Positions 20,122 through 37,091 of a stretch of 37,091 nucleotides of DNA are shown piece by piece. The position numbers and the translations under genes were made by a program. Within the stretch, counting starts at the first letter, position 1. Each line of letters begins with the position of its first letter. The notes beneath the pieces were generated by a model. That model made no database searches and was not told where the DNA came from. It saw only the letters and a program-made list of their open reading frames with translations. The stretch covers positions 1-37,091 of the forward strand of contig JAFIEB010000065.1 of NCBI GenBank assembly GCA_020832735.1, read 5' to 3'. This stretch comes from Oceanicaulis sp. (GTDB taxonomy: Bacteria; Pseudomonadota; Alphaproteobacteria; Caulobacterales; Maricaulaceae).

Positions 20122-22194
20122 TCAGGCGGATTCTCCGCCCTCGCGTGCGGGCAGGTCCAGCTCGGGCGCGGCCGCAACCGCGTCTGCGATCAGCGGCAGG
20201 TGACAGGTCACGCGCGTGCCTTCGCCCGGAGCGCTCTCCAGCGCCACCCAGCCGCCATGCAGGCGCACGATATCATTGACCAGCGCCAGGCCGAGCCCCG
20301 CGCCGCCGCCCTCGCCGCGTTCGAAACGTTCGAACACGTGGGCCTGGCGCTCGGCCGCGATGCCCGCCCCGTCATCGCTGACCCACAAGGTGACGTCGTC
20401 CTCGCCTGCGCCTGCGCCCACCTCCACCTGCCCGCCCGGCTGGACGTGATCGAGCGCGTTGGTGAGCAGATTGTAGAGCACCTGCTTGAGCCGCTTGGCG
20501 TCCGCGCGCGCGGTCGGCAGATCCGCATCCGTACTGATCGCCACACGCACGCCTGCGTGCTCGGCGCGCGTGGCGATCAGTTCGGCCGTGTCAGCCACCA
20601 GCGCATCCAGGCGCACATCGCCCAGCTCAAGCTCCAGCTGGCCCGCATCAATGGCGGCGATGTCGAGAATGTCGTCGATCAGCTTGCCCAGCTGGCTGGA
20701 GGCCTGCTGGATAGCGGTGATATGGTCGCTCTGACGCTCGCTGAGTTCGCCGGCGAACCCGCCCGCCAGCAGGTCGGCATAGCCGTGGATCGTGGTCAGG
20801 GGCGTGCGCAGCTGATAGCTGACGTGCTCCACAAACCCGGTCTTGATCTTTTCCGATTCCTGCAGCGCCTCGGCCCGGTCGCGCAGGGCCGCCTCGACAC
20901 GCCGCGAATCGGTGATGTCGTCCCAGGCGATCAGCGTGGCGCCGTCGGGCAGGGGCCGGGTCAGCCAGGTCAGCACGGATTGGTCGGTGCGCCTGATCTC
21001 GCCGGCCACGGGCGTGCGCGCCTCCGGGCTCGGATCGGTGATGCGCGCCTTCAGCGACTTCCAGGCGTCGGCATTGGGGTAGAGCGCCATGCACGACTCG
21101 GCCACCGCGTCAAAGCCCGCCTCGTCCAGACCGTCCGGGTCCAAGCCCCAGAGCGTCTCGAACGCGGCGTTGCGCAGCTTGAGCTTGCCGTCCGAGCCGA
21201 ACACCGCCACCGCCTCGTGCAGCTTGTCCAGCGTCGCGCGCTGGACCTTGATCAGCGTGTTGTAGCGCGCCTGCAGGGCGAGCTGGTCGGTCATGTCCTC
21301 GAAGATCAGCAACAGCCCGCCCATCAGATGGCGCTGTCGCGCCACGCGCAGCATGCGCCCGTCAGGCAGGGTCCACAGCTCGTCAGGCATGTCGGCGCCG
21401 GGCTGGGCTTCATAGAGGGCCAGCTCGCCGGCCTTCCAGCGCGCGTAATCCTCCTGCTCGGGCAGGCGGCGCGCCGCGCGCAGCCGGTCCAGCAGCGCCG
21501 AATGGGCCGGGCGCTCGTTGAGCATCGCCTCTTCCAGCGCGAACAGGCGCACGAAGGCCTGATTGTAGAACACCAGCCGCTTGGCGCGGTCGAAAATGGC
21601 CACCGCCTCGGCCATGTGGTTGAGGGTCTGGTCGTGAGCCTGGCGGAAGCGCTTGAGCGCGGCCTTGGCCTCTTCCCCGTCGGTGACGTCCACGGCGAAG
21701 CCCGCCGCCCCGCCGCTCACCGGATAGACATGGAAGGCCAGGATGCGCCGCTCGCCGCCGGCCACGGCGCCGCGCACGCTCTGGCGCGCAGACCCGGCCT
21801 TGAGCGCCTCGCGGGTCTGCTCGGCAAGACCCGGCTCCAGCAGGATCTGGCGCTCCACCGCATCGGCCGGGCTGTCGGCCTCCACCGCATCGGCATAGGC
21901 CTGGTTGACCCAGACCAGGCGTCCGGCCGCGTTCATGCGCCAGGCCGGCCCCGGGCTGCGCGCAACCATGTCGAGACAGGCCGCCGGATCGACTTCCGCC
22001 GGACGGCGCGCCTCCTCCAGCCGGCCTTTGAGCCCGGCCTCCTCCAGCTCGCGAATGGTGGCGTCGGTGAGCCAGACCACAAGCTGGCGCCCGGCGGCGC
22101 GCCCGTCAGCTTCCAGCACCCGGCCTGACGGTCCGGCGATGGTCAGGGAAAAGCCCTGGCCGGTCTCCATCAGCCGGCGCAGGCGCTGGCGCAT
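20122..22194 (-). CDS. divL: DivL-like tyrosine pseudo-kinase, main part (PAS repeats, DHp, ATPase)
   Basis: This 690-codon frame carries PAS domains (about residues 75-170, 190-300 and 318-428), a DHp helix region (~445-515) and an HATPase_c domain (~560-675, with NLLTNALDHV, SDDGAGI and GAGLGLALVNDIV). The usual H-box His is replaced by Tyr: HVSYQLRTPLTTI, Y460 (codon 20815-20817). DivL of Caulobacter also has Tyr at this place and acts as a cofactor that controls CckA through DivK. The first ATG (22194) is not the natural start: the same frame continues upstream to 22599, interrupted only by TAA at 22252-22254. Translated alone it would lack the membrane anchor. Confidence 0.85.
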   Translation of the reverse strand: MRQRLRRLMETGQGFSLTIAGPSGRVLEADGRAAGRQLVVWLTDATIRELEEAGLKGRLEEARRPAEVDPAACLDMVARSPGPAWRMNAAGRLVWVNQAYADAVEADSPADAVERQILLEPGLAEQTREALKAGSARQSVRGAVAGGERRILAFHVYPVSGGAAGFAVDVTDGEEAKAALKRFRQAHDQTLNHMAEAVAIFDRAKRLVFYNQAFVRLFALEEAMLNERPAHSALLDRLRAARRLPEQEDYARWKAGELALYEAQPGADMPDELWTLPDGRMLRVARQRHLMGGLLLIFEDMTDQLALQARYNTLIKVQRATLDKLHEAVAVFGSDGKLKLRNAAFETLWGLDPDGLDEAGFDAVAESCMALYPNADAWKSLKARITDPSPEARTPVAGEIRRTDQSVLTWLTRPLPDGATLIAWDDITDSRRVEAALRDRAEALQESEKIKTGFVEHVSYQLRTPLTTIHGYADLLAGGFAGELSERQSDHITAIQQASSQLGKLIDDILDIAAIDAGQLELELGDVRLDALVADTAELIATRAEHAGVRVAISTDADLPTARADAKRLKQVLYNLLTNALDHVQPGGQVEVGAGAGEDDVTLWVSDDGAGIAAERQAHVFERFERGEGGGAGLGLALVNDIVRLHGGWVALESAPGEGTRVTCHLPLIADAVAAAPELDLPAREGGESA

Positions 22195-22251
22195 TGTGAC
22201 GGTATCGCCGCGCGCGCTGCGCGCTTCGAAATCAGCGATCCCGGCGAGAAT

Positions 22252-22254
22252 TTA
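22252..22254 (-). other. in-frame TAA that splits the divL-like gene
   Basis: The codon reads GGG CGC TAA ATT CTC GCC GGG ATC on the minus strand. Upstream and downstream parts are in the same frame, 60 bases from this stop to the ATG at 22194. The bridge (ILAGIADFEARSARGDTVT) reads as ordinary coding sequence of this family. One base change would restore the gene. Confidence 0.8.
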
Positions 22255-22599
22255 GCGCCCGGCGTCGCCGCTGGCCGCCGCGCCCTGGCCCAGATCGGCG
22301 AACTGCACCATGGACGCCAGCGCTTCAGGAGACCCGTAAATGCCCGGACAGCCCCAGTCGGGGGCGTCCGGGTCGGGCGGGGCATCCCAGACGAGGATCA
22401 GGCCGGGGTGAGCGCCGAGCACGCCGCCGGCGCGCTCCAGCCGGTCTTCCAGCCGGGCCATCTTCGCACGCCAGTCGGACCGCGCGGCGCGCGCGCCCGT
22501 GGTCATGCGGAAGGCCCACACGCCCGCCGAGACAGCGAACGCCACCGCGCCTCCGGTGACGATCAGCGTGGCGAGCTGGATCGGCTCGGCGTCCGTCAT
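22255..22599 (-). CDS. divL: N-terminal membrane segment of the divL-like gene, cut by a stop codon
   Basis: These 115 codons (stop at 22252-22254) hold one membrane segment at about residues 9-31 (LATLIVTGGAVAFAVSAGVW). A short helix with basic residues and the family segment LGAHPGLILVWD ... GCPGIYGSPEALASMVQF follow, which in relatives precedes the PAS repeats. The chain then ends at the in-frame TAA. It is the front end of the gene continued at 20122-22194; the full frame would be about 825 codons. It could be a true pseudogene, a sequencing error, or a readthrough case. Confidence 0.75.

Positions 22600-34930: not shown

Positions 34931-37091
<2,161 letters not shown>

Follow-up and report, generated by a model that had tools for sequence, protein, structure and literature searches.

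An in-frame stop codon private to one Oceanicaulis draft genome interrupts an otherwise conserved divL gene

In Caulobacter the divL gene is essential, and a soluble three-PAS construct of its product, residues 152-769, binds phosphorylated DivK (DivK~P) selectively (both from the available part of PMC4211667). The gene is also thought to be essential in Sinorhizobium (available passages of PMC11500502). Here, we describe the divL gene of Oceanicaulis sp., which lies within a 37,091-nucleotide stretch of draft sequence (contig JAFIEB010000065.1 of assembly GCA_020832735.1; hereafter the window) and is interrupted in the deposited sequence by one in-frame TAA. The stop is found in none of the aligned relatives and the gene around it is intact and under selection; we think it rather likely that the TAA is an error or a minority allele in the draft consensus.

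The assignment of this gene as the genome's single divL ortholog is supported by sequence comparison, because the H-box carries a tyrosine, the best structural match is to DivL and the gene is present in one copy. In this gene, which the sequence-only reading of this DNA had called divL-like, the phosphoacceptor histidine is replaced by tyrosine (VSYQLRTPL, aligned to VSYELRTPL of PDB entry 4q20). The best PDB match of the body downstream of the stop is 4q20 itself, 'Sensor protein DivL' of C. crescentus (E 3.9e-63), from which the Oceanicaulis gene differs in having, as deposited, a stop at codon 116. The body also matches PAS_7, PAS_4, PAS_8, HisKA and HATPase_c of Pfam over cut-off, while the 115-codon N-terminal segment alone has no Pfam or NCBIfam match. 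A second divL copy, for which the same reading had proposed a search, was not found: of the genome's 15 kinase matches, the one ranking after divL shares only the kinase part with it, at 35% identity. None of the other 14 kinase matches has an internal stop (one flagged case is a natural end). By analogy with Caulobacter, the protein would be expected to bind DivK~P and to act on CckA.

The minus-strand frame from 22599 to 20122 comprises 825 codons before its final stop and is interrupted once, at codon 116. This leaves an upstream open reading frame (ORF) of 115 amino acids plus stop (22252-22599) and a downstream ORF of 690 amino acids with its own stop (20122-22194), and an N-terminal helix that is in frame and conserved in relatives is yet separated from the body. 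The closest relative is the divL of Alkalicaulis satelles G-192 (NZ_VWOJ01000002.1), which is 93% identical and, unlike the Oceanicaulis gene, forms one uninterrupted frame of 827 residues with glutamate at position 116; the neighbors in the 37 kb of the window are present in A. satelles in the same order. All five of the nearest relatives encode glutamate at the stop position (GAG in three, GAA in two), each has a single uninterrupted frame, and the bridge between the TAA and the next in-frame ATG (22195-22251) aligns to them without gaps. The earlier claims that a single TAA splits one divL-like frame and that the bridge reads as coding sequence are thus borne out, the latter also by its differences from A. 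satelles, six synonymous and one non-synonymous. The likeness is more than chance would give: compared with A. satelles, identity is 97% across the 115 codons preceding the TAA and 92% across the next 50, and in the gene as a whole 168 codon differences are synonymous and 54 non-synonymous. The ATG at codon 136 is new in the lineage, the five nearest relatives having leucine there (L136M), and the same replacement occurs in one further relative of the 31-row alignment (L057) without any stop. At codon 119, three past the stop, alanine is present where these five relatives have aspartate (D119A).

Both halves of the gene bear the marks of protein-level constraint. In comparison with A. satelles, codons 1-115 have a ratio of non-synonymous to synonymous rates (dN/dS) of 0.053, the bridge one of 0.041 and codons 136-825 one of 0.121. 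The last value is not read as relaxation: it is roughly double the 0.057 found for each of two other close pairs, yet A. satelles against the relative L013 gives a still higher 0.197. Polarisation with four outgroups assigned 38 synonymous and 27 non-synonymous changes to the source branch, as against 20 synonymous and 18 non-synonymous on that leading to A. satelles (Fisher P = 0.68). Selection is thus strong on both sides of the stop, with no relaxation, and comparison of divL with A. satelles revealed neither of the signs of a decaying pseudogene sought, relaxed selection or a second lesion. At columns invariant in the five relatives, 17 replacements are derived in the source genome, the stop included, and 12 in A. 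satelles; three of the 17, the stop, D119A (22243-22245) and L136M, fall within codons 116-136.

Internal stops in divL are rare among relatives. The collection searched contains one genome per species. Comparison with close relatives, which the sequence-only reading had suggested, found no stop at the TAA column in any of the 31 aligned relatives. A divL match was obtained in 59 of 61 relatives and in 131 of 137 family genomes, a few only as pieces cut at contig ends. The family search returned ten rows with a stop, that of the source genome included; of the other nine, eight proved on re-reading to be natural ends and one, in the genome G024, truly internal. Internal divL stops are therefore present in two of the 131 matched family genomes, at different positions. 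Two separate genes at the stop position were seen in none of these 131, some rows of which are cut by contig ends. The G024 gene (L246, G024:C15:9100-12300), from another genus of the same family, resembles the Oceanicaulis case in being a draft sequence with one clean internal divL stop and differs in that the stop is TAG and stands opposite the tyrosine at residue 396 of the A. satelles protein. In an order-wide draw, divL was matched in 245 of 249 genomes and, among the 150 matches listed, eight were flagged, with the same two internal. GyrB, used as a control, was matched in 243 of the same 249 genomes, with no stop among the 150 matches listed; divL and GyrB do not differ significantly in this respect, and the GyrB matches listed do not include G024. 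By these alignments, the stop described here is private, and isolated divL stops are rare though not unique.

The genome is a draft of 146 contigs, and its other genes were compared with those of A. satelles by means of gene proxies, ORFs filtered by length and GC content at third codon positions (GC3), some of which are not genes. Thirty A. satelles ORFs had a match within the window, and their comparison disclosed one stop, that in divL. Across 807,663 bases of the source genome, orthologs were found for 296 A. satelles gene ORFs; 12 of these comparisons showed stops and two were multi-frame. On inspection of these 296 orthologs (107,750 codons) divL was the only clear nonsense case, which speaks against general decay or poor assembly; the other flagged cases were judged to be over-extension of the start region or antisense ORFs, C127:5072-6142 less surely so. 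At C103:22590 the multi-frame signal comes from the sequence preceding a gene with a product reading MSKRHSQKY, which we take to be S4-like. The reverse comparison of 287 genes gave 12 with stops and four multi-frame, of which one is clear and C16:10298-11476 is ambiguous. The clear A. satelles case is a TonB-dependent receptor (G008:C1:71283-73475) interrupted at codon 329 by a single TAC to TAG difference from its source-genome homolog (G000:C103:11468-13657). Such lesions are rare in both genomes, about one per 300 conserved genes.

The genes of the CtrA pathway are present. The sequence-only reading had proposed looking for cckA, divK, chpT and ctrA, and all were found without internal stops: CtrA matches NF045991 over cut-off; ChpT matches PF10090 over cut-off, with a score of 217.6 against a cut-off of 225 for the NCBIfam model; DivK matches PDB entry 1m5t (E 2.2e-59); and CckA scores 619.8 bits, below the strict cut-off of 1000. 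CpdR and PleD are over cut-off, and a DivJ-like kinase scores 288.8 bits against a cut-off of 1000, again without internal stops; no gene was assigned as PleC. None of 40 Rfam tRNA matches carries a stop-reading anticodon as assigned by ARAGORN, in a set that is incomplete, tRNA-Ile(gat) and tRNA-Ala(tgc) being absent from it.

The features of the interrupted gene are collected in Table 1. A model of the first 330 residues of the A. satelles protein predicts a helix at residues 5-62, with low to middling confidence, followed by a PAS fold (PAS A) at about residues 66-179 (predicted local distance difference test, pLDDT, 74.9; predicted template modelling score, pTM, 0.40). Residues 51-203 modelled alone gave pLDDT 78.9 and pTM 0.71. 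In VIA-align the PAS A model matched PAS/LOV domains at up to Z 9.3 (root-mean-square deviation 3.3, 127 aligned), the rows for the 330-residue model mostly testing residues 200-320; Foldseek returned nothing for PAS A alone at E <=0.001, its best match being a PAS-like domain at 1.5e-3. The TAA falls inside the predicted PAS A, in the helix between strands 2 and 3, and a protein restarted at Met136 would, on this model, begin without the anchor and without strands 1 and 2 of that domain.

Table 1. Positions in the window of the interrupted divL gene and its parts
Feature	Position	Strand	Basis
In-frame TAA, codon 116 of the divL frame	22252..22254	-	sequence and alignment of relatives
divL N-terminal segment of 115 codons, comprising the start, a membrane helix that continues as a coiled coil, and the opening part of PAS A	22255..22599	-	
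Bridge from the stop to the next in-frame ATG, 19 codons (57 nucleotides), coding-like	22195..22251	-	
ATG, possible restart, no Shine-Dalgarno sequence	22192..22194	-	
divL body, 690 amino acids: remainder of PAS A, further PAS domains, DHp (HisKA), HATPase_c	20122..22194	-	
Predicted PAS A, A. satelles residues about 66-179; contains the TAA	22063..22404	-	models
Tyrosine codon (TAT) at the H-box position, VSYQLRTPL	20815..20817	-	sequence

We place first an error or a minority allele because the stop is private and nothing else is amiss with the gene, whose Caulobacter counterpart is essential. The private stop, the intact and selected gene and the pathway genes are observations, and from them we infer a wrong or unrepresentative base. 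The organism would then possess an ordinary full-length divL, the stop being a feature of the deposited draft and absent from all or most of the living population. Its source would be a consensus or assembly error, or an allele of a minority strain taken into the consensus, and the cell would make a normal DivL with a membrane anchor, PAS domains and a pseudokinase DHp-CA, which, to go by its ortholog, may sense DivK~P and tune CckA as in Caulobacter. Several points weigh against this interpretation. The case for an error comes from the biology alone, and the assembly does not look error-ridden, there being no other clear internal stop among the 296 orthologs. The cluster of replacements within codons 116-136 is the best hint of a real local change; it is mildly unusual, with P of about 0.01 when the stop is counted and about 0.06, for two or more replacements, when it is not, both post hoc. 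The alternative to which we give appreciable, though clearly lesser, weight is a real and very recent nonsense mutation, in a lineage that either makes a 690-residue DivL by restart at or near the ATG at 22194 or is impaired. In that case a restarted DivL, though missing the membrane helix and the N-terminal half of PAS A, would suffice for the essential functions, and restart would seem to be the one plausible means by which a lineage with a real stop could retain DivL function. The body is intact, with its PAS domains, tyrosine H-box and HATPase_c, and would by a rough mapping through 4q20 still cover the equivalent of the soluble DivK~P-binding construct 152-769 described in part in PMC4211667. 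Among the six nearest genomes only the source lineage has ATG in place of the codon for Leu136. That divL can occur in broken form is indicated by the TAG of G024 and by the use of a Caulobacter divL::Tn5 strain whose insertion precedes the HisKA region (available text of PMC4432633). Translation restart is common in bacteria, according to the accessible part of PMC5972666, but the same text puts more than 75% of E. coli intercistronic gaps under 30 nucleotides, and the 57-nucleotide gap here exceeds most of them. The ATG at 22194 lacks a Shine-Dalgarno sequence (-2.1 kcal/mol, compared with -8.6 at the gene's normal start) and in this respect is no better than most other in-frame methionine or valine codons of divL. 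Restart there is nevertheless possible, though not favored, because gyrB in the same window manages with only -2.4 kcal/mol; gyrB (34940-37090) runs off the right end of the window, which is the end of the contig. Also unfavorable to a recent mutation are the predicted position of the break inside a PAS domain, the lack of relaxed selection, and the occurrence of L136M without a stop in L057, which means that the ATG is not necessarily a newly gained start. Consensus error and very recent real mutation, taken together, very probably embrace the true explanation.

The stop within the predicted PAS domain, the missing Shine-Dalgarno sequence and the lack of a stop-reading tRNA among the 40 matches argue against an evolved split or readthrough. 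Gene fission, in which anchor peptide and kinase body have become two cistrons encoding separate and perhaps re-associating proteins, would fit the low dN/dS of both halves and the new ATG after the stop. We regard it as improbable, since the break is predicted to lie within a fold rather than in a linker or at a domain boundary, the bridge still evolves as protein, and such a split is seen in no other family genome. Readthrough or suppression of the stop to give full-length DivL is still harder to credit: the bridge and downstream frame do stay protein-like, but the stop is conserved in no relative, as a programmed site would be, and the tRNA matches speak against it. The least probable explanation is that DivL is being lost from a cell cycle that no longer needs it. 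Dimorphism genes have been lost in some Caulobacterales lineages, as reported in PMC12700997, the available text of which does not mention divL; against this explanation stand the lack of relaxed selection on divL and the presence of ctrA, chpT, divK, pleD, cpdR, cckA and the divJ-like gene without internal stops. Among the options raised by the sequence-only reading, sequencing error and recent loss thus remain, while suppression and a dispensable DivL are disfavored by the tRNAs, the pathway genes and the signs of selection.

A new kind of split gene is, most likely, a less probable account of this locus than a draft error or a very recent mutation. If the stop is an error, as we judge likelier, the locus is a caution that a gene call in a draft genome can show an essential regulator as broken where none is. 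We consider it unlikely, yet worth stating, that the organism has a naturally anchor-less DivL, in which a real stop and a recruited ATG 19 codons on would yield a soluble protein with a broken first PAS domain and an untethered CckA-CtrA switch, the anchor peptide perhaps being kept as a separate product; the internal TAG of G024 would in that event count as another natural divL truncation, arisen independently. Were the stop real, restart could yield such a soluble, anchor-less DivL, and a free-living relative of Caulobacter would offer a natural test of the need for membrane anchoring and PAS A in the CckA-CtrA switch.
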